The position numbers and the translations under genes are program-made. 64,000 bases of DNA, taken from the NCBI GenBank assembly GCA_017562135.1, contig QEYB01000936.1:682001-746000 (forward strand). The letters are read 5' to 3'. Shown here piece by piece: positions 28,325-59,900 of the stretch (position 1 is the stretch's first letter; every line of letters starts with the position of its first letter). Source of the DNA: Dipylidium caninum (lineage: Eukaryota; Platyhelminthes; Cestoda; Cyclophyllidea; Dipylidiidae). The notes under the pieces are model-generated. The model made no database searches. It saw only the letters and a program-made list of their open reading frames with translations, and was not told the DNA's origin.

Positions 28325-29619
28325 ATGGAATCCGGCCACTTAAAATCCATGGGTCTGAGCATTGACGCGTTAGAGATGGAATTACAGCGTTCCGTAAGGA
28401 AGGAGCAGCGTCATTGGCATGAAAATGACGCGAAGTTGAGAGCAATTGAACAGAGAGTTGCCACCTACGAAGAGTTTCGGTAAGTGTTACTATCCACTTA
28501 AAGGATTACCCTAATTATCAAAAGGGGCCTTGTCGACGGTTGTGAGCTACGTCCATTGAAGTTCAAGGAGGTGAAAACAGCAACTAAACGCTATGCGGGC
28601 TGGGCTCCGGCTCTGTCGTCTACTTCTTGTGTGTACACCGGTCAGAACAATCTTTCACCTACCAATGACCTACCCGTAAGTTCGGGTTTGGCCTAACCTT
28701 ATTTTACCCAATCTAAATCGGGACGTGACCTCGAACATGTTTCAGGCCGACATCACGGGTTTCGTCGTTTACCACCTGCCCTATCCTCCCATTCCAATCT
28801 ATCTCCCACACGCATTCCTGCCCCAAGCTGTGCAAAAAATACACAAGGCAGCATAAGGTCTAATTTACTACTTTATAAAGCAATCTCACTTTGAGGAAAA
28901 CATTGAGGTTGGAGAAGTAATTCTACTCATTTCTGAGTTCTGGCGCATTTACATCGTTCGTCGAGGGGAACATCTTTCAGCGCCACTTCAATATGCTTCC
29001 CACAGCCTATCACGGTGTAAACAAATAAACATTCCTCTACTACTATTTACCTTCCCATGTTGCTTTGCCACAGGTTTTACAGGTTACCTTGTAACACATC
29101 CTCACCTACGCCGTAAAGCTTTGTCACCACATGCATAATTATATATTTGTCCAACCAATCAGCCAGAGATCTTACCTCGCGCTTGAATTTTGATTTGTTA
29201 ATTATACTAATTTCTTATTGGTTGACTGCATTCTAGTACTTTCACATGTGTAGGGGCAGTTTGACAATATCGACAACTTCATCAGATGCTGGAATGACCT
29301 CGAAAGGCGCCAATCCGAAGTCCAACTAGCGAGTCTATTGGCAGAGCAGCCGGAGCTGCTTCAAGAAGTTTTCGCTTCAAGTGCCGGTCTCCATATACTG
29401 CCGCGACTCCTGAAAAGCCTTTTAGCAGCGTCTGCAGACGCTCCAGAGTGTGTTATTCGTACCTTACAGGCAATCGGTTCAAGTAAAAATTTCGAATTAA
29501 CTGCCATGTTCATGTCCGACGAGGAGAAGACCCTGATAGGTGGCATACTTGAAACCTTAAGAAACACCACGGGCCAACAAATTACCGATGCGTTGAAAAG
29601 ACTATGGCTTCCTACGTAA
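28325..29619 (+). CDS. CCDC103: CCDC103 / DNAAF19, ciliary dynein-arm assembly factor
   Basis: Exons 28325-28479, 28525-28675 and 29254-29619 (TAA) give 223 residues (human 242). The N-terminal coiled coil (IDALEMELQRSVRKEQRHWHE, then NDAKLRAIEQRVATYEEFRG, then LRPLKFKE) is the diagnostic CCDC103 signature, with the AVEQRVASYEEFRG-type motif split by intron 1. The C-terminal helical domain (FIRCWNDLERR; LLEQ-like region; GGILETLRNT) matches the RPAP3-C-like fold of the family. CCDC103 stabilises outer and inner dynein arms on axonemal microtubules. Flatworms need it for flame cells, sensory cilia and sperm. An alternative last exon of 36 codons (28746-28856) follows a good tttcag acceptor in the correct phase. 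It would truncate the C-terminal domain. Confidence 0.9.
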
Positions 29620-30259: not shown

Positions 30260-31279
30260 TCAACTTAATAATGACACCTGAATTGCACTTCCATCTGTGA
30301 TGCCGTAGTCTTTGAGGTGTTTATGCGGTTGCAATTGATAATTGTTGAAGTAGAGGTCAGCTCTTCGACAATTGATTGCTAGAGTATTTTTGACAATTCT
30401 TTGAACTTCCTCCACCGTACAGTTAGCTGGAACTGTCACAGTAACGGTTCTTCTACCAAATTCACAGAGGAGATTAATTTCTTTCTCCTGAAATCTTGAG
30501 GGATTACCTTCTCGAACTCGCGTGTCTTGTAAGTAGAAGCTCTCATCGCCCCCGATCGTCAGCATATCTGGTGTCTTTTCAGAATCCAGCCTTCTCCCCG
30601 ATAAAATAAATTCCTGATATTCGGCAGGAATGCCAGTTTTACTTTCCACGTCTTTGCAGATCTCTTTCAATGGTCTATATGCATCTACATACAAGCTGAA
30701 GGGATCTCCGGTAGCTGTCAAGACGTGGACTTTAATCCTGCGTTGACGAGTTAGGGATGAGTTCTCCGGAAAGTCGTCACAGTATTCGTGGTGTTCAGAT
30801 GAGGATTGCTGCCCCTGATCTAGACGTCTTGCCACTACGATGCAAGCATTCGCCTTCATCTCATAATCCTCCAGTCGGCGGGAATCCTCCAAGACCCAAT
30901 TAGCGTAGACAAGGAATGCTTGCTTGATGTTGAAAGTCGGACGAATTTTGTGATTGATTTTCTCACGTAACTCACCTACTGTAGCATTCAAATGAATCGC
31001 AATGGAATGCACCTCCGTGGGTGAAATAGTCAGCCTGATTGGGACGATACTTTTGTAGTTTAGGGGCAGGTGCAATTCGAGAGAACAGGGGTCCGTGATT
31101 CCATACTCCTCCAGACTTCGTCCATTTTCGAGGTAGACACTTCTATGCGTGAGGACTTGATCATTCTGAGGAATCCCAAGGGCCATGGTAATATCGTGCT
31201 TCACGTTCATGACAATGTCATTGGCTTTTACCGATAGAGTTAGCAGTTCACTGCCTTGGTGAATTATTCGAAGGTGCAT
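30260..31279 (-). CDS. Single-exon protein of four tandem ubiquitin-like domains
   Basis: An intron-free frame of 339 residues from ATG at 31279. It divides into four ubiquitin-like folds: about 1-75 (MHLRIIHQGSELLTLSVKAND..VKHDITMALGIP..YGI.D), 80-152, 182-255 (IKVHVLTATGDPFSLYVDAYRPLKEICKDVE..TGIP..QEFILSGRRLD) and 265-339 (INLLCEFGRRTVTVTVPANCTVEEVQRIV..LQPHKHLKDYGI.DGS). Each has the beta-turn-beta, helix and [L/Y]xxYGI.[D]xx[T/S/C]. endings typical of ubiquitin. None ends in the Gly-Gly needed for conjugation or processing, so this is an integral UBL protein and not a polyubiquitin precursor. Lys residues at ubiquitin chain positions are poorly kept. The domains are strongly diverged from one another. 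No named family was recognised. The lack of introns in an intron-rich neighbourhood suggests retroposition or a fast-evolving lineage-specific gene. Confidence 0.8.
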   Translation of the reverse strand: MHLRIIHQGSELLTLSVKANDIVMNVKHDITMALGIPQNDQVLTHRSVYLENGRSLEEYGITDPCSLELHLPLNYKSIVPIRLTISPTEVHSIAIHLNATVGELREKINHKIRPTFNIKQAFLVYANWVLEDSRRLEDYEMKANACIVVARRLDQGQQSSSEHHEYCDDFPENSSLTRQRRIKVHVLTATGDPFSLYVDAYRPLKEICKDVESKTGIPAEYQEFILSGRRLDSEKTPDMLTIGGDESFYLQDTRVREGNPSRFQEKEINLLCEFGRRTVTVTVPANCTVEEVQRIVKNTLAINCRRADLYFNNYQLQPHKHLKDYGITDGSAIQVSLLS

Positions 31280-31300
31280 AATGCGACAGTACGCACACTA

Positions 31301-35318: not shown

Positions 35319-35375
35319 CCAATGAATAAAGTTGATGCCCAGCCAATCGAAGGTAAAGTATACTAATCTATAAAA
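35319..35375 (+). promoter_or_regulatory. CCAAT-TATA promoter of cluster copy 1
   Basis: CCAAT at 35319-35323 (a second at 35343) and TATAAAA at 35369-35375. The coding ATG is 48 bases after the TATA start. An ATG that overlaps the TATA box (35375) must lie upstream of the transcription start, so it is not the translation start. Confidence 0.7.
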
Positions 35376-35416: not shown

Positions 35417-36271
35417 ATGGCGAAGAAAGAGAAGAAGCCTAAGGAGAAGAAGGAGAAAAAGTCCAAGGAAAAGAAGGCGAAAAAGGAAAAAAAATCTAAA
35501 AAGAATAAGGATGGCAAGTCTGGTCGGACTTCGATATGGGAGTCATTTCATGTGGAAGTTTTGGTATATGGTCGTAAGGATGTCGTAGATTTGTACTTAC
35601 TTAAGGTAAGTCCGTGTTCTCAGTGCTTCTAATCCTCTAATCTGTGTCCCTGTAGAAGGACTCTTTGAATACTACTGCAAACAAGTACAATGTAACTATC
35701 GATGCCAAATCAGGCGTCGATATGGATGGCAATATTGTGAATCGTAAGGGTGACCTCCTTCTTTGTGTCTACGACGTTCGTCAAAGGGAAACCCTTAAAT
35801 TCCTCCAGGAAAAAGTGAGGTCCACCTACTCACTTTACAAAATTCATTCCAGATTATACCAGAACTTAAAGACCAGCAAAATATGATGGCGATTGGTGGA
35901 TTGGGCTTGGAGTATAGAACTGGAGGAGGCATCTGTGAGACTGATGTGAGGAACATCCCCTCTTTGAAAAGTCAGTACAACTGCCCAGTCACTGAACTCA
36001 TCACATGTGATGCAGTAAGTGTCACTCTTACCGATGTCATCACCCTACTTCTTGTACTTAACCTTTTGGTTTCGCCTTCCAGAGTCAGTTAGGGGCGGCC
36101 ACCTTCGCTTTCTACATGGCCATGCACCCGGAGAAGTTCACCAAAGCCGGTGATAAACACAAGGATAGAGAGGATGAAGAAGAGAGTAAGAAGAAAAAGA
36201 AGACGTGCAAGTGCAAGAGAGACAAGAAGGACAAGAAAGAAAAAAAGGAAAAGAATAAGAAAAAGAAGTAA
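35417..36271 (+). CDS. Lysine-rich pseudo-GTPase family, copy 1
   Basis: Exons 35417-35605, 35656-35814, 35853-36014 and 36083-36271 (TAA), all joined in phase 0: 232 residues. The first 35 residues are almost entirely Lys and Glu (MAKKEKKPKEKKEKKSKEKK...), and the last 35 are again Lys-rich. The core resembles a Rho/Ras GTPase: a first strand (FHVEVLVYGRKDVVDLYLLK) where the P-loop should be, a LLLCVYDVRQRETLKFL strand-helix equal to the GTPase [A/S]D..LLVYDVT..ESF..L, AIGGLGLEYRTGG at the position of the NKxD strand, and ELITCDA at the SAL/SAK site, followed by the last helix (GAATFAFYMAMHPEKF). All guanine-binding residues are missing: no GKS/T, no DxxG and no NKxD. The GTPase relation is inference. 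The Lys tails suggest nucleic-acid or nucleolar binding. No ortholog was recognised. Confidence 0.75.
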
Positions 36272-37202
36272 CGACCGCGCATTTTCCAATACTTCCAACC
36301 TCTCAAATACCCAAACTCTCGCCGATTTACCAGATTTTCACACTCTGGCTCTTCCCATCGTCTACACCTTGTCATATTTTCCATCCCATCAACATATGTA
36401 TCCGGTCATATTAAGAAAGTCCTTCATGTCTGCTGACGCTCGCCGTCTTTTTCTGCCTCCTTCAATGAGCAAAGAGCGATTCTTTTTAGGAAACCGCTTC
36501 AGGCTTCCTTTCTACCAAGTTATATACATATTTGGACACAAATATTTATATGTATCTGTATTATTGATATCTGACGTTGACAATATATAATCTCGGTTTC
36601 GATGGAAATCTCTCTGCTCGCTAAAAGGGGCTGGCGTTAGTTGAGACATCTCAGTCTCATCACCTGTCAAGAGGCCCCACTTGTGCACCTTCCCCATTCT
36701 TCACTATAATTGGAAGTGGGTTTATCGGTAATTTTCGGGATGTATAGTCGCTCAGAAGACCAGGTTACCATTTTAACTACGGGGAGGGATGATTATGAGA
36801 TTGCCTCTCGACACGATGGGAGTAATTCACACGAAATTTTTGACAAACCAAGGATGGGTTGGAGGAAAAAAAAAGACATAAGAAGCGTATACGGGTTTGG
36901 GAAGCCGATACTACTGAAATGGAGAAATAAGGAAAATTGATGGAAGTGAAACGCAATGGCTCCCAATGCGAAATTGAGGAAAGTAGTAGAGACGAGAAGG
37001 CAGGAATAAGCCAAGAAAAAGAAACAACAATTGAAGGGGTTGAAAAAACTTAAAATTTAATCGATGAACATTCAACTAATTGGCAGTAAAAATGGAAATA
37101 AATTATTCCCGGAGTGAGAAGTATAAACTGCCTTTGAAGTGATAGGTACCTCGAGGAAAAAATCTGCCAATAGCATTTATCAAAGAGTTGCACGAGAGGG
37201 CC
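36272..37202. other. Spacer between cluster copy 1 and inverted repeat B
   Basis: Includes the copy 1 3' UTR. No gene was found; the frames on both strands are short and unsupported. Confidence 0.5.
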
Positions 37203-37933
37203 AAATTATTTCTAGTGGAGGGAAAATAAACGTGGGGAAGAGAGGATGGCTCAGAAGGCGACCACCACAACACACCACGTTCTCGAAACTGATTACAGCA
37301 CAACGACCATTCATAGAAGCAGTCTCTGCTCTCTCACCATGAGAACCCTCATCAGAGGACACAGACGACTCGAGGTTGTGCCGTCCCCTGCCCGACGCGA
37401 GGCAGAAGACTTGAGTCGTCGTCGAGTAAACGCATCCTCATACTAAGTGGCCAAACGCTCGGGCACCAGACAGTAAGAGAGAGGATGGAAGCGACCGTTT
37501 GGACAGAGCAGATAGGAGAGGGTGCAGTTGAACCGTCAGCCCCACAAATACACGCGCATCCACGTGGATCTGCCTTTCGACCGTCCAGGCGTCCACCCAC
37601 CTCCATGCAGCGATGACCACACGAGTGCTCAGATCCGCGTTCTGAGGAGAGGGTGTTGAAAGAGTGCGACACACCGCGCCGCACATACTTTCACACATGT
37701 GCAAACACTTTTCTACCGTCTGACTGTGCAGAATTGAGAGGGAGAGAGAGAGACGAGGCGTCAAGGTGTGAAGTCGAGAATGAGCAGCTTTTTTCCCACT
37801 TACACACACACACACATAGAGAGAGAGAGAGAGAGAGCGAGAAAGAGAGACAGAGAGTCGCGGACGTGTACGTATACGTAGAGGTGGAGGTGCAGGAATA
37901 TGGCGGTGGAAGTGGTGGTGGAGGAGGAGAGAG

Positions 37934-37968
<35 letters not shown>

Positions 37969-38537
37969 GATGGGGATGAGAATGGGGAAGAAGAGGGTGA
38001 AGGTGTTGGATCGAAGGTGAGAAGAAAACATCATCGAACATGAAGGGCGCTACGAGAAAGGAATGCTGGTGACGGGAGAGTCGGTCCAATTGCCTGAACT
38101 GCTTCAAGATGGACGATGCAGTAGATGGAAGGAGAGAATTGACAACAAGCAGGAACAGAGTGAATGGGTTGACGGACTGGAGGGATGAGGAGGAGGAGGG
38201 AGGGAGGGAGGGAATGAGAGGAGTGGGAAGGGGGTGTGAGGAAGGAGAATGAGAGGTAAAACTGGTGACAGAAGCTGCCACTAAAATTGAACGCCTTCGA
38301 TATCCACTCCCCCAACTCTTCCGACTCTTCCGGCTCCTCCGACACCTGCGACTCTTCTTCCTCCACCGCCTTCTCCCCTCTCTTCCACACATCGTCTTGG
38401 GGTCATTCACAACACCGAGCCTATTTATAGACCACCTCAATTACTCTGAATGACGTGCATCTACCCTCTTTCATTCTATCCACCATCACCAAAATCACCA
38501 CCACCACCACCACCACCACCACCACCATCTACAGCCT

Positions 38538-38576
<39 letters not shown>

Positions 38577-39711
38577 AATCCTCCTCCTCCACTTCCACTT
38601 CCACTTCCACTTCCCCTGCGATCCACACTCCTGCTCTCCCCGACACGTCTTGTCTCTCCACTTGTCCGTCGGATGCTCTCTCACCCCACAATCGCCTCCA
38701 TCGCGTCTGCCAGTTTATTTATTTACCACTGAGCGACATCCTCACTGCGTGAATGTTCTCCAAAGCTCCCATTTCCCGACCACCAACCTCCGCTTGTCCT
38801 CCCGTCACCAGAGCAATTGCATGATGCAATCGGTAATGATCTGAGGCATTGTCGTCGAATCCATCTGACACATGGTCTCTCCTAACCTCTGTCGCGACGA
38901 AGGAGGTTGCCTGACAGTTTGCATGTCCTTGTCTGTCCATCAGGAGACCGCGTCCCGACCCCTCAACCACTCTTCTATGTTGACAGGACAAATCCCTTAC
39001 TCGACCCTGTCTCCTCTGTCCGTACCTCGTCCGTCCGTCTGCCCGTCCGTCCGTCTGTCTCAACTCAGTCGCCTTGCTGTAGGTGGAGTGATGACTTGAA
39101 CGCGTGGGTTTGCTCACGCCTGTGTGTCACTGGTCTCCATGAGGCAGGAACGACAAGCTGATTGGTCCAGGTGCCAGCCGACCAGTTAAATCGGTGTAGC
39201 CGTTTTGACTGAAGAGCTGCCTTCTTTTCGCAATGGAAAAGCAAACCACCGTTCTGACAATATTGTCAACTTTCCCTTTCCTTCCTTTCTCACTTTCCCT
39301 CCCCTTTTGCATCACTGACCACGTTGTTCGGCAAAATACTCACCCTTCTCTCAAAGTTAATCCTTTGTTTGACTTTGTATCTTATGTAATCAAGTCTGCT
39401 AAGTAGTTTTCTGGTTGCCTTCCTACTTGCAATGTCGTAGGTCCTCTGCGCCATTGTCCGTCCCCTTCACTGTTTCTCTTCAGTATCACCTGTTCGGCAC
39501 ATTGAAATTTTAATTCGCTCATGTTGTGGCGCATGTCGGTGGATGGTTCCACGTCAGTGCAATCTCCCGACTGTCGAAGCACCATCTATAATTTGCAATA
39601 TTTCTATACTTCATCTACCTTTTGTCGTTGCAATTTCACCAAGTTGACACTTTGGTCAGTTTTAATGCAAAAGAATACGGCTTGACATCTTGCGATAAGT
39701 TAATGTTCCCG
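37203..39711 (+). repeat. Left arm of large inverted repeat B
   Basis: About 2.5 kb that recurs as its reverse complement at 42515-44994. Shared mirrored landmarks are aaattatttctagtgg at the outer edge (37203 / 44994), the QKATTTTHHVLETDYSTTT frame, the (GA)n/(CA)n/(GGA)n block at 37740-37975, the (CCA)n and CTCCTG tracts at 38490-38576, the RPLNHSSMLTGQIPYSTL frame, the MVLRQSGDC frame (39382-39585 minus; 42643-42828 plus), and the inner edge gttaatgttcccg (39711 / 42515). The repeated frames differ by few residues, so the arms are recent or kept alike by gene conversion. Indels concentrate in the microsatellites. Confidence 0.93.
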
Positions 39712-40320
39712 TCTAGACTCCTTGAGTCTGCCGGATTTATCTAAACTTCACTGGTGGAGAGACGTGATGGCCGTCGATTTATGAATGGGTACGGCGAATA
39801 TTTTCACGTTAATCTGCTGATCCACGGTTCTCTACCACTTGGCTTCCTATGCAGCCTCATGGAACGAGAACCTCATCTGTCCACTTATGTTAGGATATCA
39901 TTCAACGCGTCCATAACCCCGCTGCCCGCACCTGATTGGCCCACATTTCAGCCAATCACATGACTCTCTTTAGCCACTTCGGCACCGATAGGCTGTCATG
40001 CACCAAGCACAATAATCGGCTTTAATACGTCTAAAATAAATACTAAGTCCATTTTCTTCCTTTCCATATCCGACCCACCTTATTCATAGCCATAATCACT
40101 TGCCACTTTTTATCATCTCTCCCTACAATTCAATTCCTCTGGATGACCATGTCCCTTTTTAAAGTGAGAGGAATGACATCTTTTCTAGCACATACTCAGG
40201 TGTCATTACCGAAAGTCGAAACTTAATTAGCACTCAACTTTTATGAGGACTGGTTATTTCGACATCCATCCAATAAGAATTTGACATTTGTGCAGTACAG
40301 TGAGCACCATGCGGGGATCA

Positions 40321-40376
40321 CCAATGAGGAAGTTGTAGCTACTTGTCAATCACCCTGTAAATGATAGGTTATAAAA
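40321..40376 (+). promoter_or_regulatory. CCAAT-TATA promoter of cluster copy 2
   Basis: accaatgagg with CCAAT at 40321-40325, and TATAAAA starting at 40370. The ATG at 40420 is 50 bases after the TATA start. Same spacing as in the other copies. Confidence 0.7.
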
Positions 40377-40419
40377 AAGGGCTGCATAGTCAAGTGAAGG
40401 TTAAACACATTGGAGTTTG

Positions 40420-41283
40420 ATGGCAAAGAAGGAGAAGAAGCCAAAGGAGAAGAAGGAGAAGAAGTCGAAGAAGGAGAAGAAGTCAAAGAAAGACAAAGGC
40501 GACAAACATGCCCATGATAAGGGGAGTAAGAAGACGAACACGGAGACCTTGCGCTTAGATGTCAGTGTATGCGGCGATCCTCGAGTCATTGAAATGTACA
40601 TGAAGGCGGTAAGTCATGTAAAGACGCAGCGATAATAGGTCATCTTTTCCCTTAGAATGGTGAAATGGAGGCACTAGTGCGTAATTATGAAGTCGAAATT
40701 TCGCCCGTAGTTGGTAATGACTCTTATGGGAAAGTCGAAGATCGTGATGCCCATTTATTCCTCTGCGTCTACGATGTTCGTAATCCCGAGACTGTTGGTT
40801 TTCTGAGGACGAAAGTGAGTTAACGGCCTTAGCGAAGATCTTATTATTTACGTGTACTAGGTAATGTCAGAAGTGAAGAAATTGAATAAACCGTTGGCTA
40901 TAGCTGGTCTCGGTGTGGAGTACCGAACGGGAGGTGGTAAAGACGAGACGAACATTAGGACCGCCTCTTCACTTGGTAGGGATTATGGATGCCCAAGTAC
41001 CGAGTTGGTTAGCTGCGATGGTGTAAGTCATCCTCCTCCACCTTAGTCGATCATCCCTGGTCTACTCAACAGCCTAACCTCGCTCCCATTTCAGCACCAA
41101 TTGGCGGCAGGGACGTTTGCATTATACGCGGCCGCGAAACCGGATAGATTCGAGGAAAAACGCCAGTCCGCGGAGGCCGAAGGGGACGGTGATAAGAAGA
41201 AAAAGAAGAAGAAGAAGGATAAGAAAGAGAAGAAGGCAAAGAAGGATAAGAAGGAGAAGAAGGAAAAGAAGAAGAAGAAGTAG
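40420..41283 (+). CDS. Lysine-rich pseudo-GTPase family, copy 2
   Basis: Exons 40420-40608, 40656-40814, 40861-41022 and 41095-41283 (TAG): 232 residues. Exon lengths are 189/159/162/189, identical to copy 1. N-terminal Lys/Glu tract (residues 1-30), core residues 40-190 and Lys-rich tail about 200-232. The core is the clearest for the GTPase resemblance: LRLDVSVCGDPRVIEMYM (P-loop site without GK[S/T]), HLFLCVYDVRNPETVGFL, KLNKPLAIAGLGVEYRTGG (NKxD site reads GLGV), YGCPSTELVSCDG and QLAAGTFALYAAAKP. The tail ends KKEKKKKK with no CAAX prenylation box, unlike polybasic Rho/Ras tails. The gene sits alone in the loop of inverted repeat B, in the same orientation as the other copies. Function unknown. 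Confidence 0.78.
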
Positions 41284-42514
41284 ACAGATAGGACTTATTT
41301 ACATACACCAGGCCCGTCCCCCGCCCCCCACCCCCAATTGGAATCGGACACCAGGACAGCCGACCCCAAGTCCTCAGCATCAGTCTCGCATATTCCAACT
41401 ATCCCCATTCTCTATCCCCGCACGAGGATGTGTATCATTCATTCAGGGGACCTACAACCTTGTTCCACTTGTATACTTTTTTGCAAGAGGCATCATTTTC
41501 GCTGATTTCCACATCGCCATAACTACTTGAATTTGTTAGGTGTGTTTGGTGTCCAGGTCAAGTTAACAATGGGACTGGCAGGTTAATGTTAACTTTGGCC
41601 ACGATGTAGGGGGAATCAAGATGAGGTGTGGGAAAAATTAAAGTCAGTAGAAGCGAGAGAGGGGAGAAACTAGCTCGCAGTGTTGGCTATGACAGCATCT
41701 GATCGGTAAAGATGCAATTACTGGAGGACAATGAGAAGAGAGTTGCTCTGGATGTTCGACGTGTGATCTGCGGTGACAGGGTAACGAGCAGGCTGCTTGT
41801 CACCTATCAGTCATTTGGACTGTAAGAAAGGCGGAAAATTCGCCAATGGACCAGTTGAACGAGAGATGGTAAAGCACTTAACAGGAGGCCCCGAAAGTAT
41901 GGAAATTGAGCTCACCACATGAGGAACAATTTCTAATTTCGTTAAAAGGAATGTGGGTCATCGAGATGCTGGTAAAACGCGTAGTCCACAACGCCAGCCA
42001 CACTCTTCGGCATCTCCAGCCCGTTTGTGGGAACTTTTCGTCATGTCGATCCATAAAATAGGCCTTCTTTAAACTGCCATGGGACCCGAAATAGCCAACG
42101 TTAACTACAAGTGCTGAAAGACTGCAGGTTAAGAAAGTACCTTTCTAGTTCAACTTCCTGACCGTTAATTCGTCCCATTGGAAATAAAATCTTTGGATCT
42201 TTGGGATAAACTTAGGAGGAGAGGACAAGCAGCTGGAATTAGTGACAAAATGTGAATGGTCGAGGCATTGTCTTCCACAGAACGGTGGCGAATGCGATAA
42301 CAAGGCAAAGATTATGATGGCCAGATGAATAGAAAGTTGGTGGCGAGGATTGCCAAGGAGTGGAGGAGTGAAGGGGGAGGTGGAGAAAGAGAACGAGTAA
42401 GATGACGTCAGTACGATGGTTTGCTTCCCCATTTCGAAATAAAGCAGTTCTTCAGCCTGATCGGCTGACACCTGGACCAATCAGCTTGACGTTCTAGCCT
42501 CATTTAAATCAGGT
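41284..42514. other. Spacer between copy 2 and the right arm of inverted repeat B
   Basis: No gene was found. Its end (about 42380-42514) is a diverged duplicate of 42900-43070 in the arm. Confidence 0.5.
42380..42500 (+). repeat. Diverged direct repeat, unit 1
   Basis: Shares ggtttgcttccccatttcg (42418) and ctgacacctggaccaatcag (42466) in the same order and orientation as unit 2 at about 42900-43070. The spacing is longer in unit 2, which has an insertion of about 30 bases between the two blocks. Confidence 0.8.
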
Positions 42515-44994
42515 GGCGGGAACATTAACTTATCGCAAGATGTCAAGCCGTATTCTTTTGCATTAAAACTGACCAAAGTGTCAACTTGGTGAAATTGCAA
42601 CGACAAAAGGTAGAAGAAGTATAGAAATATTGCAAATTATAGATGGTGCTTCGACAGTCGGGAGATTGCAGTGACGTGGAACCATCCACCGACATGCGCC
42701 ACAACATGAGCGAATTAAAATTTCAATGTGCCGAACAGGTGATACTGAAGAGAAACAGTGAAGGGGACGGACAATGGCGCAGAGGACCTACGACATTGCA
42801 AGTAGGAAGGCAACCAGAAAACTACTGAGGATTAACTTTGGGGGAGAGGTGAGTATTTTGCCGAACAAAGTGGTCAGTGATATAAAGGGGAAGGAAGGTG
42901 GAGAAAGGAAGGAAAGGCGAAAGTTGACAATATTGCCAGAACGGTGGTTTGCTTCCCCATTTCGAAATGAGGCAATTCGTCGGCCAAAACGGCTACACCG
43001 ATTTAACTGATCGGCTGACACCTGGACCAATCAGCTTGTCGTTCCTGCCTCATGGGACCAGGTGACACACAAGGCGTGAGCAAACCCACCCGTTCAAGTC
43101 CTCACTCCCACCTACTGCAAGGCGTTCTGAGTTGAGACAGACGGACGGACGGGCAGACGGACGGACGGACAGAGGAGACAGGGTCGAGTAAGGGATTTGT
43201 CCTGTCAACATAGAAGAGTGGTTGAGGGGTCGGGACGCGGTCTCCTGATGGACAGACAAGGACATGCAAACTGTCAGGCAACCTCCTTCGTCGCAACAGA
43301 GGTTAGGAGAGACCATGTGTCAGATGGATTCGACGACAATGCCTCAGATCATTACCGATTGCATCATGCAATTGCTCTGGTGACGGGAGGCCGGGAGCTT
43401 TGGAGACGAGCATGGTGACCTGTGGCAGCACGGGAGAAGGTTGGGGCTGTGTTGGAGTATTTAGCAGGTAGGGAATCCTCTTTAGCATTCACGCAGTGAA
43501 GATGTCGCTCGGTGGTGAATAAACTTAACTGGCAGATGCGATGGAGCGATTGTGGAGCGAGAGAGCATTCGACGGACAAGGGGAGAGACAAGACGTGTCG
43601 AGGAGAGCAGGAGTGTGGCTCGCAGTGGAAGTGGAAGTGGAAGTGGAAGTGGAAGTGGAAGGAGGAGGAGGAGGAGGAGGAGGAGGAGGAGGAGGAGGCG
43701 GTAGATGTGGTGGTGGTGGTTGGTGGTGGTGGTGATGGTGGTGGAGAGAATGAAAGAGGGTAGATGCACGTCATTCAGAGTAATTGAGGTGGTCTATAAA
43801 GGGGCTCGGTGTTTTGAATGACCCCAAGACGATGCGTGGGAAGAGAGGGGAGAGGAGCGGAAGAGTCGGAAAGAGTGGGAGGGGAAGGCGTTCAATTTAG
43901 TGGCAGCTTCTGTCTTTCGACCAGTTTTACCTCTCATTGGAACTCCACCCCCCTTCCCACTCCTCTCATTCGTTCCTCCCTCCCTCCTCCCTGCCTCCCT
44001 TCATCCCCCATCCGTCCGTCATTCACTCTTTATCCCATCTCCTCCCACCAGTTCCTCTTTGCTTGTTGCCAATTCTCTCCTTCTCTCTACTGCGACATCC
44101 ATCTTGAAAGCAGTTTCCCCTCACCAGCATTCCTTTTCTCGTAGCGCCCTTCATGTTCGAGACAGTGTTTTCTTCTCACCTTCGATGCAACACCTTCACC
44201 CTTCTTCTTCCCCATTCTCTCCCCATCTCCTCCTCCTCCTCCTCTCCTCCTCCTCCTCCACCACCACTTCCACCGCCATATACCTGCACCTCCACCGTAT
44301 ACGTACAAGTCCGCGACTCTCTGTCTTCTCTCTCTCCTCTATCTGTGTGTGCGTAAGTGGGAAAAAAGACGCTCATTCTCCACTTCACACCCTTACACCT
44401 CGTCTCTCTCTCTCTCTCTCTCTCTCTCTCGCGATTTCTGCACAGTCAGACGGGCGCAAAAGTGTTTTGCGCATGCGTGAGAGCATGTGCGCGATGTGTG
44501 TGGCATCTCTTCAACACCCTCTCCTCAGAACGCGGATCTGAGCACTCGTGTGGTCATCGCTGCATGGAGGTGGGTGGACGCCTGGACGGTCGAAAGGCGA
44601 TGGCTACTGCCACGTGGATCTGTCAGATCGAGTGGATGCGCGTGTATTTGTGGGGCTGACGGTTCAACTGCACCCTCTCCTATCTGCTCTGTCCAAACGG
44701 TCCTTTCCATCCTCTCTCTTACTGTCTGGTGCCCGAGCGTTTGGCCACTTAGTATGAGGATGCGTTTACTCGACGACGACTCAAGTCTTCTGCCTCGCGT
44801 CGGGCAGGGGACGGCACAACCTCGAGTCGTCTGTGTCCTCTGATTGAGGGTGCTCATGGTGAGAGAGCAGAGACTGCTTCTATGAATGGTCGTTGTGCTG
44901 TAATCAGTTTCGAGAACGTGGTGTGTTGTGGTGGTCGCCTTCTGAGCCATCCTCTCTTCCCCACGTTTATTTTCCCTCCACTAGAAATAATTTT
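42515..44994 (-). repeat. Right arm of large inverted repeat B
   Basis: Reverse complement of 37203-39711. The loop between the arms is about 2.8 kb (39712-42514) and contains copy 2. The microsatellite tracts differ in length from the left arm: a GGAAGT/GGA tract at 43620-43700 and a (CT)n at 44400-44430. Open frames within it are compositional or mirror those of the left arm and are not called as genes. Confidence 0.93.
42900..43070 (+). repeat. Diverged direct repeat, unit 2
   Basis: Second unit of the direct repeat described at 42380-42500, located inside repeat arm B'. Its inverted counterpart is at about 39135-39260 in the left arm. Confidence 0.8.
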
Positions 44995-45157
44995 GTCCGT
45001 CTACGCGGTTAAAGTAGTTTCCAAACTGTGAAGTCCCTTTCAGCTGTCTGTTGAATGTTGTGGGCAAATTGTACGGTTCTCGGCACAACTAAGTTTTCAC
45101 CTCTCCACACTCTGATACGTGGACATGTGCGTGCCATCCATGCTCCGCTCGGTTGCG

Positions 45158-45213
45158 CCAATCAGATATCTCACACTCACAACAATTAGGTTACCTCTGT
45201 CGGTCTATAAAAA
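45158..45213 (+). promoter_or_regulatory. CCAAT-TATA promoter of cluster copy 3
   Basis: CCAAT at 45158-45162 (gcgccaatcag) and TATAAAAA at 45206-45213. The ATG at 45255 is 49 bases after the TATA start. This spacing selects 45255 over the earlier in-frame ATG at 45219. Confidence 0.7.
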
Positions 45214-45254
45214 TACTAATGAATCGCATTAGTGGCTATGCAGTTAAAATTGCC

Positions 45255-46089
45255 ATGGGGAGAAAGTTAAAGGCCTCGGGATTGCAGAAGGCGAAGGGGA
45301 AGAAAGACAAGCCGGAGAAGAGTGAAACACCAGAGCACGTGGAGAAAATTTCAGGTCTTAAGAATCTCAACATAGATGTTGGAGTGTGTGGTGATCCGGA
45401 CGTGATTGCATTGTTTATGGAGAAGGTGAGTTCGACCTCTTTCAATACCTTTCCTCTCCCACCCTCGCCAAGCCATCCCGAGGCTTACAGTCCCTCCATT
45501 CACAGAAAGAAGACATAGAAACCCCAGTAGACCGATATCAAGTCAAAATTTACGCTCAACCGGGCAATGACGAAAATGGCAGAATGATGAACAGCACAGC
45601 CCCCTTCCTCCTCTGCGTCTACGACGTTCGTAATGTGAAAAGTGTCGGCTACCTCCGAAACAGGGTAAGATGTTGCGTGAACGGGTTGGGAATTTCCTAG
45701 ATCCTTCCTGAGGTTAAACGCCTCAATAAGAAGTTCGCCGTGGCTGGATTGGGCTTGGAGTATCGCAGCGGTATGTGCCGAGGTGAAACGTCAATTGAGA
45801 CTGCCGCCAACTTAAATTATTCCTTCGGATGTCGATGTAACGAAATCATCAGTTGCGATGGAGTAGGCAATTCTTCCTTGGCCTACCCACTTCTCTGCCT
45901 TTTAATTAATTTTCCGTTCTAATTATTCGTTGGTGTCTTATCATCCAGGCACAAATGGCCGCGGGCATATTTGCGCTTTACGTGTCCACGTGTCCGGAGT
46001 TGTTTGACCAAGGGCACAAAGTAGCCGGAGGGAGGAGGCCCGGCTGGTTTAGGGCGAAGGAGACCAAGGACAAGGAGCTGATGTACTGA
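45255..46089 (+). CDS. Pseudo-GTPase family, copy 3 (short tail)
   Basis: Exons 45255-45425, 45506-45664, 45701-45862 and 45949-46089 (TGA): 210 residues. The middle exons keep the exact lengths 159 and 162 and phase 0. The core is conserved (LNIDVGVCGDPDVIALFMEK; PFLLCVYDVRNVKSVGYL; FAVAGLGLEYRSG; GCRCNEIISCDG; AQMAAGIFALYVSTCPELF). The N-terminus is less Lys-dense (MGRKLKASGLQKAKGKKDK), and the C-terminal Lys run of copies 1 and 2 is replaced by GGRRPGWFRAKETKDKELMY. As in the other copies, there is no P-loop, NKxD or SAK motif. It begins about 260 bp outside the right arm of inverted repeat B. Probably functional, since the frame and splice sites are intact. Confidence 0.75.
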
Positions 46090-46650
46090 CACTGGTTACC
46101 TCCACCTCTTAACGTGTTATCAAGGTCCCTAAATTTGGAATTTCCTCTCCTCCACCTTTCTTGAGACCTTCTTAATGTCGGCCACTTCATGGACCACGGA
46201 GGCTGTCATTTTCACCACCCTTTTCCATCCCCCTATAAATCGCCTTTTCGTCTTCTTCCGTACCCATCACTCGGCTTGGGCTTTTCTTGGAGTTAAATTC
46301 TTTAAATCTGTTGAAAGGGAGATTGGTGTAGGATATGCGAGCTCAGAACACCGAGGGAAAGTCTGCGATAGCTTTTAAAAGTCCACAGGGGCATCCGGCT
46401 CGTGTACTCCGCCTAGTAGATGTCGAAAATAAAATGAACGCATCTTCTGTCAAGAGGCGACACGGTCAACTTATCCATCATTATTCCCTCAAGCGCATAT
46501 TTTACCCATCACCAAAAAGGTTCACGTATTTCAGGTGTCATCTGAAGTCTTTCCTTTGAGGTGCTCCCTTAATTCAGGACGTCCACTTACAACATTCCGA
46601 TCGCTGAGCACGGACAGAGTGAAGGGAGTTGAATGGCAGAGAGGAAGGAA

Positions 46651-46711
46651 CCAATGAGGGTCTTTGATGACCTGTCACTCGCAGGTGGATGATGGAAAGA
46701 TCTCTATAAAA
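46651..46711 (+). promoter_or_regulatory. CCAAT-TATA promoter of cluster copy 4
   Basis: ccaatgaggg at 46651 (same ten-base context as copy 2) and TATAAAA at 46705-46711. The ATG at 46755 is 50 bases after the TATA start. Confidence 0.68.
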
Positions 46712-46754
46712 CGGCTGCGTTATTCACGCAAGATTGACAGATAAGAAGTCTTTT

Positions 46755-47555
46755 ATGTTAAGGAAGGATAAAAGAGACGAAAAAGGCGAGAGATCATCCA
46801 GAAGGGGAATGGCAGATCGAAATAAGGGTGATAAGGGTAAGAAGTCCAAAAAACCGGAGCGCGAGACCCTACATTTACATGTTAGTGTGTGCGGTCTCCC
46901 GAGAGTGATAGATTTGTACATGCGACAGGTAAGTCTGTGCCAACTTCCCCATCCTTGTTTCCCGTCCCGCCCGTCCCCTCTCGTCTGGTCTCCTCTCGTC
47001 CGGCTCACTTATCTCGCAGATATACAATGCGAATTGCTTTAGGTTAATAATTTGTACTGTGAGACGGAGAGATTTGTGGTGTACATCGATCCAAGTCGTG
47101 GCAATGACACAATGACGGTAGGGTGAACAGTGGAGGCGCCGATCTCGCCCTCTGCGTCTACGATGTCCGAGATCGTCTCTCAGTGGCCTTCCTCAAGGAT
47201 TATGTGAGTTGGCATCGGCTTCACTAACCTCCAGATTCTGCCGCATATGAGAGGACGGAACGAGAATATGGCCATAGCCGGCTTGGGATTGGAATGGAGG
47301 ACGGGAGGTCAGGACGAGACAGACATTGGCACAGTCAATCGATTGGCTAGACAGTGCGGATGTCGTGGTTCTGAACTCATCTGCTGTGACGGGGTAGGCG
47401 AGTCTTTCCTGCAATTTACTACAGTGTTAATCGTCTTCTAGCATCAAATGGCCGCCGGTACATTCGCGCTGTACGCACAAGTGCATCCGGATGATTTTGA
47501 TAGCGAAGAAGAAAGTGGCAAGGACAAAAAGTCCGGCCGGGGAAGTAAGAAGTGA
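46755..47555 (+). pseudogene. Pseudo-GTPase family, copy 4, frameshifted in exon 2
   Basis: Exons 46755-46928, 47043-47203, 47235-47393 and 47442-47555 (TGA). The family blocks are all present: LHLHVSVCGLPRVIDLYM, ADLALCVYDVRDRLSVAFL, MAIAGLGLEWRTGG, GCRGSELICCDG and QMAAGTFALYAQVHPDDF, then a short tail ending GKDKKSGRGSKK. Exon 2 is 161 nt where all siblings have 159. Its first half reads in the expected frame (FVVYIDPSRGNDTMTVG) and then hits TGA at 47124. The LCVYDVR half continues two bases out of phase. No GT-AG intron inside the exon restores the frame. Either the copy is a recent pseudogene or the assembly has an indel here. The promoter and other exons are intact, so decay, if real, is young. 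A later in-frame ATG exists at 46809. Confidence 0.6.
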
Positions 47556-52489: not shown

Positions 52490-54960
52490 ATGGTGGCAAA
52501 CAAAATAATTAAAGCTGCAATCCTCATTGGAGGCCCTGCCAAGGGAACTAGGTTTAGACCCCTCTCACTGGAGTTGCCAAAGCCGCTTTTTCCAATCGCT
52601 GGTTACCCAATGGTTTATCATCACATCGAAGCCTTTTCCAAGGTATACTAATAAAATCCCCTAATTCCCGTAGGTACCCAACATGAAGGAAATTATTCTT
52701 ATTGGGTTCTATCAACCAAATGAAATCCTATCTCGGTTGATAAGCGAAGCTGCTAACCAGTTGGGCATTAACATTCGGTAATTTCATTCCTTTTTCCCAT
52801 CAGATCTTTAATTTCCACTCTTTTTATGCAAACGATTTGTGTGTAGGTATCTTCAGGAATACACCTCTCTTGGAACGGCTGGTGGGATATTCCAGTTTCG
52901 TGATCAAATAAGCGCCGGTGGCTTGGATCTCCTCTTCGTGATGAACGCTGACGTGTGTTGCGATGCGCCATTACAAGAAATGGTTGAGTTTCATGGCAAT
53001 CTCGGTTCTGGTGATAAATTTGTTGTCCTTTCAACGGAGGTTTGTTTTTCAATGTGTTTTTTTGAGAATCCTTGAATTGTCGAATACGTTGGCCTAATTC
53101 TTCTCCAGGCAACTCGAGAACAATCTATGGAATTCGGGTGCATTGTGGAAAACCCAGAAACTAACGAGGTATGCTTCAATGACTGAGGTATCGCATTTTG
53201 GCCCGAATTCTTATTTATTCTTCGTTGTAGATTACTCATTATGTGGAGAAACCTGACACATTTGTTAGCGTTCGTATTAATTGTGGCATCTATCTTTTCT
53301 CCCCGAGCATCTTCAAGTTCATTCGTGTTGCGTTTCTTGACCATCAACATCAACAGAAGTAATTCTTTTTCGTCCTAATTCATATTTTAGCACTCGGTTT
53401 CGGGGAATGTGCAAGGAAAGCATTCAGCTAGAGACGGAAATATTTCAACCACTTGCCGGTAGTGGAACTCTCTATAATTTTCATACGGAGAGGTTTTGGA
53501 GTCAACTAAAACATCCCGGGTGAGATTGCCTATTTTCACACTTTATACCCTTTTCACAGCTCCAGAATCTTGGGAGCTACTAGTAAACTGTTCCAAAATT
53601 TGCATCATGTTCTCGCATCTTAACATGTTTGAACATTTCAAGAAAAACAACTACTTAAAACATTTCCAAATTTTGGCTTGTTTTAACGCTCCATTTTAGC
53701 ATTCGATGCAAAACTTGTTTTATGCAAAATTTCATCCAATTCACAGCGTTTCAAAGTCGTTGAAAATGTGGATGTGCTGGCTTTCGCCCTAGGCTGTAAT
53801 TTCTACCGCCTTCCATGTGCGTGTGGTTTTTGTGTAACTTGACGATTGGTGCGACGCGTGGGAAAAGTTAGAACACCACGAGTAGTTTTATTATATCTTT
53901 AGTCCCCTTTAATCAAGAGCAATTTACTATTCGTTCTCTTTGATAGTTGTTTCTTTTTTCTGAAAACTTGCGGCCTTATTGTCAGTAATACATTTTTACT
54001 CCAATGGCCTTGAAGACGTTCTTGCCTCTCCTTGTTGAGGACATCTTTGTCTGATGGTACTTTTACTCCAACTCTTTAGGTATCTTTTTATAAAAAATGG
54101 TCCGTGTAAAAGGGGATATTTCGGTTTGTCATCCTATCAAACCATTTCCGTTGGAAAGTTTAGATTTCAGACGTCACTGAGGTCTATATTCTTCCTTTCT
54201 TTCTTTAAGAGCGGTCATTTACGCAAATCGTCAAATGCTGGCGCTCTACCATCGCACTCATCCCCATCGTCTGGCAGTCCATAGGGCTTCTGTCGGCAGT
54301 GACCAGTACATCAATGACACCACTGACCTGTCTGCTGAGGCATCGGGAGATTGTCAGGCGACGACCACTTCAAGTGCTCGGATCATCGGTGATGTCTACC
54401 TACACGCGACAGCACGAGTACATCCCACCGCGGTGCTCGGTCCTAATGTCAGTATCGGTGCTGGTGCCATAATCGGGGCGGGTGTGCGTCTGCGCGACGT
54501 TATCGTGCTACGTAATGCCGAGATTCACGCGCACGCCTGTTGCCTCAATTGTGTAATTGGCTGGAACACCGTTATTGGTCAGTGGGCTCGTGTTGAGGGG
54601 ACCGCGGCCTTTGGACCCAATCCTAATACACCCTTCACGAAACTGAAGGTGATGCCGGTGTTCAATGCCAATGGACAACTGAATCCGTCAATCACGGTTA
54701 TTGGTAGGCGGTGCGGACGGAGACTAGAATAGTAATACGGAAGGAGTCTTTGTGGGCCAATAGGCATTATTTTGATATGAAAAGCCTGGAATTTTATGTA
54801 AACCTCTTTGTAGAAGACAGGAATCTAATGTTTGCTATTTAACTCTTTCCTCTCCATAGGTTCGAATGTTGACGTGCCTCCAGAAGTGATTGTTCTAAAT
54901 TCGATTGTGCTGCCGCACAAGGAGCTAACACGTAGTGTCAAAAACCAGATTATTCTCTAA
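52490..54960 (+). CDS. GMPPA: GMPPA, regulatory alpha subunit of GDP-mannose pyrophosphorylase
   Basis: Eight exons: 52490-52642, 52674-52777, 52847-53039, 53109-53168, 53231-53358, 53391-53519, 54210-54703 and 54860-54960 (TAA). All phases match. The N-terminal nucleotidyltransferase domain shows [18 protein letters not shown] and [14 protein letters not shown]; the [12 protein letters not shown] form identifies GMPPA rather than GMPPB. The middle has [13 protein letters not shown] and the VMNADVCCD strand. The C-terminal left-handed beta-helix has hexapeptide repeats ([40 protein letters not shown]) and the family end [13 protein letters not shown]...NQIIL. GMPPA binds GDP-mannose and inhibits the catalytic GMPPB subunit, which controls mannose supply for N-glycans and GPI anchors. 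Introns 1 and 5 are 31 and 32 nt; intron 6 is 690 nt. A linker insertion (about 50 residues, Ser/Thr/Ala rich) precedes the beta-helix. Confidence 0.93.
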
Positions 54961-56982: not shown

Positions 56983-59900
56983 ATGTACAGCCCGGAACCA
57001 GAGACTATCGTGGCTAAAGTTGAAGAGGAGCAGAAGCCGTATGCATATCTTTGCTAATAAGAATTTGTACTTCTTAACCGTATCATTATTCCCTCAGTAT
57101 GATATCAAAAGCGCTTCCGTGTGTTAAGACAAACTACGCATGGCGCCATTGGTGTCAAAATCTCGCATTATGTGCTGTTCTAGTTCTAAATAGTTGATCT
57201 AAGGTAGACTGAATATATGTAATTGAGACAACTGTGCTTACTTTTACTGGGGTTTATTTTTGCCGCGAACATCCGCGACCGCACTGGAAATTTTTGGGAT
57301 TGTCTTTGCTTATACCTATATATAAATTGAATGCTTGCACTAGCCTCTCGCATTTCTTTTCAATTTTTAGATTTACGAAAATATATGAATTTTCGGAGTT
57401 CGCGGAGATTTGTTCCTTCATATACCACTTCGGTGAGAAACTCGGTGTACCTTTCACGTTCCCTCGAATCGCCCGTCTTTTATCATGCGAGACAGATGGT
57501 GTGTTTCAGTTTTTGATAACCTCATCTTATGATTACGGTCTATCGTCCTTTTCCATTATCCAGTTGATTTGCAATCCCTTACAACCTTGTTGGTCAAACT
57601 GCTTAATAAGATGCGTCTTCGAACTCAACTTAATCGATGGCAACCAGCGTTGGGTCGATTTCTCCAACGACACGCATACAACTGCGACGAACTCCGAACC
57701 ATCGGGGATGCTCTTGACAATGGTGGCCCCCCCACGCTCTTTTTTTCACTTCCTCCACAGAGACGTTTGCGCGTCATCCTTTTTTGCCTGGAGACCCAAT
57801 TTCATCTAAATCCCCTTTTTAAGGAGAAGGTGAAAACTTTAGATTCTTGCATCCTTCGTACTCCACCATTAGGTGTGGACATTTTCGGTAACTCTTATTG
57901 GCTCTTCGTCGATATGGAGTGCAATTTTCTTCTTTATCGCTCCGCAGCGGAAGATATGACATTAGAAGTTCGTGTTGTTTCTTTTAATTTCTAAATTGTT
58001 GAAGTTCTTACTTTTGGGAGCGTATCTTTTATCTGATTACCCTATCTGCTTATCTATTTCTAATATTTTATTAATACCTAACGGCGACCAAAGTAGAAAT
58101 CGATCTAAAGATGCATTTATACTTCGTCATGCAAATTCCTCACTGAGTAACTCGAATGCTTTACTTTTTTAAATCTACCGAATTTGTCCTGGAATCTTAA
58201 CTAAAAAGGCGACCATTTAACCTATCAAATCTTCAAACTAATGGGCGTTCATTTTTGCGGTGATGTTAATGGGGATCTCAGTAGCTAATACTTTCCACTC
58301 CCTAATCTATACTACCGTAATGGCGTCAATTATTGACCCAATACGACAGCTCGTGTCCTGATGTTATCCTTGAAAGCTTATCACACTTGCCTGCACCTTG
58401 ACATTTCTATTTAACAATTAACAGGTACTGATCGTTAGACGATCGCTGCATGTGCTATAGTTGTGTACAACCGAATCAGACAGCCAATTTCGGTCGAATG
58501 TAAAGGGGAACTCTTAACTTTATTCGTGCGGTCAGATCTTAGATTTACTAATCATTTGTGTCGCTAAATAATATTAATGTCTTTGGTATCCCATTCCCTC
58601 TCAGCTACTCAGTGACTCATTTCCTACTTTGGAGGCTGTGATTGCCAGTCTGAAGGATGAAAAATATGAGAAAACACCCATATCGGAGCTATATTTAGTC
58701 TTTCGACTCTCTACGAAGCCGGAGTCTCCGGAGCCTGTCAATTTTCCGTCTCCCCCAACTCTTCCGGAAATTGGGTCTTCTGCAAAACTGGAAGTAGACA
58801 AACTGGAGCCTTCAGTGAAGGTAGAGCCTACGGCATCCCCAGAGGAAGAGCCGATTGAAGAAGTACGGAATGAGGAATCGGTTGCAGAGACATTGTATGT
58901 GGCCCATACTTACAACTGACTATAATGTCCTTACTTCTTATTCCCTATTTCAGTAGTATAATATTATTTGTTTTACAGCCCTGACCAGCCGATTAAAATA
59001 CCGGTGAAAAATACCACTCCTGAATCGCAAGTCAGGTGCGTCACTCGTCATCTGAGCCTCACTAACTTAAAATATATTTCTTACGCTTGACACTTTACTT
59101 GTTCAGCCATGGAACCACTTGCGAAAACATTGTTCAATCCCAGGAAATCGAACAAAACAGGTTGAAACGCTAATCTTTTCATTAGGTTAACTTAATCTCT
59201 TTTTGGCTTAAACCCTTATTTATTTTACAAATATTAGGGTAGAGGTGTCAGGAGAGGTACCAGGTTTACGTCGAAGCGGTCGGAAACGCAAACAGGTGGA
59301 GTTCCTCGCAATGGAGACCTTCAGAAAGAACTCCAAATCGCGAGGTAAGAAGTCGGTCTCAAATCCAACCTCGAAAAAGGCGAAGGGGACAGGAGAGAAG
59401 GTAGGAGGTAAGAAAACGCGCAGGGAAAAGACGTCTACTAGGCGTCGGAAGCGAGGTGGCAAGAAATACCGCAACGGTCATAACACCAGTAGCAGCTGTT
59501 TGTGGACTCGTTCTCCTGGGGACTCAGAATCTGACAATGACGATGGTGAGGGGGATGATATGTGGAATGACTTTGACTCGAACGACGGTGAGAATAGCAG
59601 TTCATCCCTCTTGGAAGCAGAAAAACAGTCACCTCGTGATTGGTTGGAAGAACTCGAAAGTGACTTTGACTTAGACGCAGAAGATGGCGACGACTTCGGT
59701 GTAGTTGCTGGACGCAATCTTCAACGTCAGAAGGCACAAGTTTTGGATGAGGCACCATGCCAAATTTGTACGATGTCAAATTACCCGGAATGGCTCTTGC
59801 TCTGCGATTCTTGTGACCTCGGGTTCCATGCCCAATGTCTTCGTCCGGCTCTTCATCTTATTCCTGAAGGTGACTGGTTCTGTCCTCGTTGTTTGCATAT

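Follow-up and report, generated by a model that had tools for sequence, protein, structure and literature searches.

The 64,000-nt stretch of Dipylidium caninum DNA analysed here (the window) holds four neighbouring, related genes, which raise the question of whether a Ras-type G domain can lose its nucleotide-binding motifs and still be kept as a protein family of its own. The original prediction of four neighbouring paralogs carrying a set of named motifs in fixed order was confirmed by the gene models and by their tandem arrangement (Table 1), and its interpretation of them as a GTPase fold was partly supported. We consider it likely that the array encodes a free-standing pseudoGTPase family, that is, a Ras-superfamily G domain of ~150 residues without P-loop, NKxD, SAK or lipid anchor and with at most a displaced DxxG, which is flanked by charged tails and serves as a class i scaffold.

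Table 1. Exons and TATA boxes of the four-copy array (positions within the window).
Feature	Position	Strand	Remarks
TATA box, copy 1	35369..35374	+	ATG 48 nt downstream
Copy 1 exon 1	35417..35605	+	lysine-rich N-tail, strand 1, helix 1
Copy 1 exon 2	35656..35814	+	strands 2-4, LLCVYDVR, helix 3
Copy 1 exon 3	35853..36014	+	GLGLEYRTG, helix 4, ELITCDA
Copy 1 exon 4	36083..36271	+	last helix, lysine-rich C-tail, stop
TATA box, copy 2	40370..40375	+	ATG 50 nt downstream
Copy 2 exon 1	40420..40608	+	
Copy 2 exon 2	40656..40814	+	
Copy 2 exon 3	40861..41022	+	
Copy 2 exon 4	41095..41283	+	
TATA box, copy 3	45206..45211	+	ATG 49 nt downstream
Copy 3 exon 1	45255..45425	+	
Copy 3 exon 2	45506..45664	+	
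Copy 3 exon 3	45701..45862	+	
Copy 3 exon 4	45949..46089	+	
TATA box, copy 4	46705..46710	+	50 nt upstream of in-frame ATG at 46755
Copy 4 exon 1	46755..46928	+	second in-frame ATG at 46809
Copy 4 exon 2	47043..47203	+	frame broken in this assembly
Copy 4 exon 3	47235..47393	+	
Copy 4 exon 4	47442..47555	+	

The exon lengths expected for copies 1 and 2 (189/159/162/189 nt) were recovered, and copy 3 was modelled with exons of 171/159/162/141 nt. Every exon length in copies 1-3 is divisible by 3, giving the phase 0 introns that had been proposed for the array; in copy 4, exon 2 lacks a single open frame. The copy 4 exons measure 174/161/159/114 nt, the first being reduced to 120 nt if the later ATG is used. 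All 12 introns across the array, which range from 31 to 114 nt, begin with GT and end with AG. The strand names assigned to the copy 1 exons were transferred from the model of a relative, P0011. A TATAAA sequence lies at comparable spacing upstream of the ATG in each of the four copies, while TATAAA 30-75 nt upstream is found for 1.9% of window positions as background. Rfam returned 0 matches at the gathering score across the window. Interpretation of the inverted-repeat arms as a dispersed transposon was unsupported; the two pieces tested matched only the two arms in a search that skips simple repeats.

A pattern scan of the copies and 17 relatives upheld the predicted loss of the P-loop, NKxD and SAK from the G domain. 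The P-loop pattern GxxxxGK[ST] was found in 0 of the 17 relatives, 13 of which include strand 1, and in neither copies 1-3 nor exons 1, 3 and 4 of copy 4. Likewise, [NT]KxD and SAK were each absent from all 17 relatives and from copies 1-3; the single NKGD string of copy 4 lies in the N-tail, outside the domain. The DxxG motif had also been called absent, but copies 1-3 all contain it as a literal string, as do 15 of the 17 relatives, and in copies 1-3 and 13 relatives it falls within a GxDxxG stretch. In the hhalign register, the Asp position of DxxG is occupied by another residue, and a canonical placing is in doubt. The proteins also lack a CAAX box, as had been stated for copies 1 and 2, with none in the 17 relatives (P0007, P0008 and P0017 being without a true end); the copies terminate in KKKK (copies 1 and 2), ELMY (copy 3) and GSKK (copy 4).

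The proposed Ras/Rho-type fold was supported on models of relatives by AF2, Foldseek and VIA-align. The AF2 model of P0011, from E. granulosus, has the strand and helix order of a Ras-superfamily GTPase, and the Foldseek and VIA-align rows shown were G domains, as judged by their titles. TM-scores for this relative's model, rather than for the array copies, were moderate (0.46-0.54 by query), and an earlier AF2 model from 8 sequences had a pLDDT of 52.8, too poor for use alone. At the profile level, hhalign aligned the family with the GTPase profile over 86 columns that run in register between strand 3 and strand 6, with a score well above shuffles. P0007 and P0008, which contain intron read-through, were left out of the family profile and of alignments A4 and A6, and copy 4 was left out of the profile and A4.

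Might the resemblance instead have arisen by convergence in a Rossmann-like protein unrelated to GTPases? Matches of single sequences to Ras proteins are indeed weak. In hhalign, HRas scored 28.8 and Ran, Rap1A and Arf1 scored 12-13, the latter three no better than reversed sequences (9-18). The best Pfam Ras E value was 0.007, for a member shown without bits, and rows with bits fell below the cut-off of 21.6; full-length copies 1-3 were not among the Ras matches listed. A six-frame Pfam Ras search of the genome gave 126 matches at E <= 1, of which 0 were inside the array, and the PDB profile search gave E values of 0.12 or worse, with 7 unrelated rows among the matches. No single-sequence match was significant, which counts against the G-domain reading itself. 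Against convergence stand the profile match in register and the G domains returned by both structure searches, and single CheY, flavodoxin and adenylate kinase sequences scored 9.6-12.8, values that as single-sequence scores are not equivalent to a profile comparison. We therefore regard convergence as extremely unlikely. Cake repeat proteins, from a single-sequence PDB search, were a chance match with no stretch passing on its own, and a weak match to a bacterial cell-cycle effector (E 0.14) was also taken as chance. It is very doubtful that the family is a divergent form of CENP-M, a pseudoGTPase of the kinetochore that holds CENP-I there, even though CENP-M has been described as belonging to class i (PMC4080450, PMC5593906), the stretch from helix 4 to strand 6 appears similar by eye, and hhalign places CENP-M there. 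The hhalign score of 15.8, obtained with a mammal-only profile, was within the null (11 of 100 shuffles scored as high, and the reversed profile reached 17.1); the profile held 14 mammals drawn from 120 listed of 509 matches, making the test weak, and CENP-M itself scored 13.7 against Ras. Pfam CENP-M (PF11111) was not among the matches listed at a maximum E of 10 for copies 1-3, 9 cores and 10 relatives, in a program (HMMER) that drops most matches above ~E 0.1. Orthology suggested by the likeness to the eye was thus unsupported by either Pfam or this weak profile test. The genome search for CENP-M was blank, as were its 14 controls; CENP-M was absent among the best 50 rows of each VIA list, which excludes nothing; and a literature search for CENP-M with Schistosoma found no match.

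The broken exon 2 of copy 4 and the long branches of copies 1 and 3 (0.96 and 0.82) could be read as an array that is decaying and non-functional, which we find hardly credible. The reading frames of copies 1-3 are open, their splice sites and TATA boxes are intact, and changes favour third codon positions, which differ most in 6 of 6 comparisons of exons 2 and 3 among these copies. A comparison of the first 16 codons between copies 1 and 2 shows 5 synonymous differences and no non-synonymous one, indicating that the tail is constrained. Copy 4 has a branch of only 0.11 and is 68% identical to a T. crassiceps protein over 107 columns, and its frame break is therefore either recent or a base-call error. 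It is rather less improbable, yet still unlikely, that the degenerate pocket is remodelled rather than dead, in which case the invariant motifs that are new to the family (a G following strand 3, GLG[LV]ExR replacing NKxD and C[DE] replacing SAK) would bind another small molecule, ion or peptide. Eight of the 17 invariant positions in alignment A6 lie in the four former motif loops, where 3.0 were expected (hypergeometric 0.003), and the loops between strand 5 and helix 4 (3.29) and strand 6 and helix 5 (3.46) outscore the strand 3-4 region (2.51). However, the loops were chosen after the data had been seen, the measure weighs Cys and Tyr heavily, and the top-scoring loop lies outside the motif loops, between helix 4 and strand 6 (YGC, 4.27), with strand 4 at 3.83. 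We know of no ligand-bound relative of the family. A broader proposal, which we consider rather unlikely, is that a Ras-type G domain lost its nucleotide motifs in a family specific to tapeworms, that the former pocket on the base side was rebuilt there into another conserved site for binding (GLG[LV]ExR, C[DE]), and that the family is deployed as old tandem TATA-driven paralogs with conserved charged tails; if true, such a family would be a new cellular module made from a dead switch.

Returning to the proposed class i scaffold, its tails qualify the earlier description of a basic protein. Among 16 proteins measured, the net charge of the folded core ranges from -7 to +1, and the positive charge sits in the tails. 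Strongly lysine-rich tails (49-60% K) were found in copies 1-2, as had been proposed, and in P0001-P0006; those of copy 3 (26% and 15%) are weaker, as are the remaining ones measured, the table of tails omitting P0007, P0008, P0016, P0017 and copy 4. The N-tail is basic in every copy measured, while the C-tail has a net charge of -1 to -3 in the three copy-4-type proteins. Pfam RPA34.5 matched copy 2 at its lysine tail with E 6e-5, a chance match that lay below the cut-off, and in the part of the literature reached by a search for lysine-rich KEKE motifs only dehydrin papers were found.

A class i pseudoGTPase is described as keeping the G-domain fold while at least one of the G motifs is gone and no nucleotide is bound (PMC5593906). 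The predicted structures of relatives combine that fold with such losses. Beyond what was computed (the relatives' fold, the lost motifs, the gene structure, a promoter layout common to the copies, an old duplication and named relatives confined to tapeworms), the proteins most likely bind no guanine nucleotide and do not switch, in keeping with class i. The G-domain fold would then probably act as a constant protein-binding scaffold inside the cell, and the N-tail would probably anchor it to something acidic, for example RNA, chromatin, a membrane or another protein. Compared with Ras, Rho and Rab GTPases, the modelled relative P0011 shares the predicted fold and the order of strands and helices, with the profile match running from strand 3 to strand 6, whereas the array family lacks the P-loop, NKxD, SAK and lipid anchor, has a mostly displaced DxxG string and no helix predicted between strands 3 and 4, and bears charged tails at both ends. 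G domains without one or more G motifs are described in p190RhoGAP (pG1/pG2), fungal dynein LIC and EhRabX3 (PMC5593906). EhRabX3 topped the PDB profile search; its chain has 391 residues, and the match covers 287-378. The fold is described as a domain inside a larger protein in p190RhoGAP and dynein LIC, in contrast to the free-standing array family. CENP-M (180 residues in human) is likewise reported as a free-standing small G-protein fold unable to bind GTP (PMC4080450), an inability that is predicted for the array family; the latter differs in its charged tails and tandem copies, and the weak test detected no sequence kinship.

The 2017 table of class i, as given in PMC5593906, has few members (p190RhoGAP domains, CENP-M and fungal dynein LIC), to which the array would add a free-standing, multi-paralog family. 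As had been supposed, no described family was found, either as a Pfam family above cut-off where bits were shown or as a published description in the portion of the literature searched; gene labels of the family gave no literature match. The proposed expansion in this lineage was not sustained. Copy 4 groups with four taeniid proteins and P0008 (98/100 support), opposite copies 1-3, and the duplication is therefore older than the species. Named relatives were tapeworms only in the searches made, with no other animals, and include the medically weighty parasites Echinococcus and Taenia. The family offers a test case for the change from switch to scaffold and gives a name to unannotated tapeworm genes, whose database labels read "expressed protein" or "hypothetical protein" or carry domain names unsupported by Pfam.

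The four GTPase-like genes of the array each comprise four exons and three introns of 31-114 nt with GT...AG borders, and in copies 1-3 the exon models bore out the phase-0 introns that had been read from the sequence. TATAAA lies 48, 50, and 49 nt upstream of the start codons of copies 1, 2, and 3, respectively, and, counted likewise, 50 nt upstream of the in-frame ATG of copy 4; such a motif is found 30-75 nt upstream of just 1.9% of window positions. As the four copies are paralogs, the common spacing reflects shared descent rather than four independent events. When the entire genome (106 Mb, 920 contigs) was searched in six frames with copy 2, all 10 matches at E ≤ 0.001 fell within the four array sites, although the search was run exon by exon and distant copies could therefore be missed. 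Copy 2 is flanked by a large inverted repeat whose pieces are 84-99% identical. Two tested pieces matched only its two arms in the genome, and the repeat therefore looks like a local inverted duplication and not a dispersed element.

Coordinates of the array and of neighboring features in the window
Feature	Position	Strand	Remark
Copy 1	35417-36271	+	
Copy 2	40420-41283	+	
Copy 3	45255-46089	+	
Copy 4	46755-47555	+	counted from the in-frame ATG at 46755
Inverted repeat around copy 2	37203-39711 and 42457-44993		
Second inverted repeat	5345-7138 and 15414-17132		
Ankyrin repeats then ion-channel domain	7748-8449, 13274-14800, 17613-20009		
Ubiquitin-like stretches	30263-31297	-	long open frame
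RPAP3_C domain	29254-29616		open frame
GMPPB-type hexapeptide C-terminus	54181-54729		open frame
PHD finger	59212-60825		open frame

Third codon positions differed most in all six comparisons made among copies 1-3 over exons 2 and 3. The low-complexity tail too is under constraint, since copies 1 and 2 show five synonymous and no non-synonymous differences in their first 16 codons, and the relatives P0001 (E. multilocularis) and P0002 (T. solium) have identical first 15 residues. Exon 2 of copy 4 (47043-47203) has no single open frame in this assembly. The break is probably recent or a base-call error, because intact relatives are found in taeniids (P0013-P0015, plus P0016, in which the first strand is missing) and the copy 4 branch, at 0.11, is the shortest among the four copies in the tree.

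Protein searches (5.8 billion proteins, E ≤ 10) gave 8 and 16 matches, together 17 different proteins, the weakest being P0008 at E 5.7e-9; the method needs exact shared words, and relatives in flukes or other tapeworm orders could escape it. Fourteen carry an organism name (Echinococcus, 3; Taenia, 3; Hydatigera, 1; Hymenolepis, 4; Rodentolepis, 2; Anoplocephala, 1), and P0007, P0008, and P0017 carry none. Taxonomy look-up confirmed Cyclophyllidea for three of the species, and we take the remaining named species to belong there as well. In a tree of 21 rows, copy 4 grouped with four taeniid proteins and P0008 (support 98/100), and copies 1-3 fell in the other part alongside members from those same taeniids. 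Nine of the 18 inner branches were drawn open, and P0008, copy 1, and copy 3 (win1 and win3) had long branches. Because both parts hold Dipylidium copies and the same taeniids, at least one duplication is, judging from the tree, older than the species, contrary to the expansion in this lineage first proposed. Four species each have a pair of proteins from separate subgroups whose contigs are equal in length (P0001/P0013 in E. multilocularis, P0002/P0015 in T. solium, P0005/P0009 in R. nana, and P0004/P0012 in H. diminuta), which suggests that each pair lies on one contig and that the array is old.

The P-loop pattern GxxxxGK[ST] was found in none of the 17 relatives (first strand present in 13), nor were [NT]KxD, a SAK pattern, or a CAAX end (true end present in 14), and none of these four was found in copies 1-3, as first noted (for the CAAX box, in copies 1 and 2). 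Copy 4 has an NKGD string in its N-tail, outside the domain. Because the first strand passes by way of CGDP or a similar stretch into a helix, the P-loop looks reduced to a few residues. In the alignment, GLG[LV]E takes the place of NKxD and C[DE] that of SAK, a correspondence read from hhalign and the predicted model. The absence first noted for DxxG is in doubt: the literal string occurs in copies 1-3 and 15/17 relatives, and in copies 1-3 and 13/17 relatives it sits at a GxDxxG stretch. The hhalign register puts another residue on the Asp position.

In the predicted model of the close relative P0011 (E. granulosus), a G domain was the top structural match, as the proposed nucleotide-free GTPase fold had anticipated. 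Aligned by hhalign with a profile of 11 small GTPases, among which RhoA and Rac1 were database-confirmed, 18 family cores scored 42.6 over 86 columns, spanning strand 3 to strand 6; the best of 100 column-shuffled GTPase profiles scored 20.7, and the reversed profile scored 15.5. Single GTPases scored weakly (HRas, 28.8; six others, 17.4-20.6; Rab5A, 16.2; Ran, Rap1A, and Arf1, 12-13), and their reversed sequences, as controls, scored 9-18. Pfam Ras matched four of nine cores (best E 0.007) and two of 10 further proteins (E 0.041 and 0.12), with no match in the full-length window copies, and the array held none of the 126 Ras matches of the genome search. The PDB profile search gave no significant match; small GTPases made up 53 of the 60 matches listed, many being variants of one protein. 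Because the single-sequence, Pfam, and PDB matches are weak, the probable descent from the Ras superfamily is argued from structure and profile comparison jointly.

Class i pseudoGTPases keep the fold and lose the nucleotide-contacting motifs (PMC5593906); the likeness here lies in the loss of phosphate- and base-contacting motifs with the fold retained. The class i member CENP-M works by stabilizing CENP-I (PMC4080450), and by analogy the array protein would act as a constant scaffold that its charged tails would tether. A likeness seen by eye in the helix 4-strand 6 region led us to test kinship to CENP-M itself, which was not supported: hhalign gave 15.8, with 11 of 100 shuffles as high and the reversed profile at 17.1, and Pfam CENP-M was listed for none of the proteins scanned. 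CENP-M against Ras scores only 13.7 in the same test, so that true kinship can escape it.

Of the 17 invariant positions, eight lie in the loops that correspond to the four lost or displaced motifs, where 3.0 were expected (hypergeometric, 0.003); these loops make up 26 of 148 core residues and were chosen after inspection of the data. A role in binding may have been retained or acquired on the pocket side; against this, the highest-scoring loop is helix 4-strand 6 (YGC), outside the motif loops. The protein had been called basic, which fits the N-tail (16/16 proteins measured) and not the core, whose net charge is -7 to +1 (16 proteins measured). The C-tail is basic in 13/16, with a net charge of -1 to -3 in the three proteins of the copy 4 type. 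Strongly lysine-rich tails (49-60% K) occur only in copies 1-2, where poly-Lys had been noted, and in P0001-P0006.

PseudoGTPases are an already known kind of protein, to which the array would add a family that is new within the scope of the searches. In Pfam, no family was above cut-off, where bits were given, in the proteins scanned, and no publication on the family was among the literature matches listed. Database labels of the relatives read "expressed protein," "hypothetical protein," or "unnamed protein product," and others are domain names, e.g., Methyltransf_11, RPF2, and Ribosomal_L7Ae.

Elsewhere in the window, the second large inverted repeat has arms of ~1.8 kb that are 90-95% identical and ~8.3 kb apart. 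The stretches of ankyrin repeats followed by an ion-channel domain are presumably TRP-like in layout, and the open frame on the minus strand encodes four consecutive ubiquitin-like stretches.
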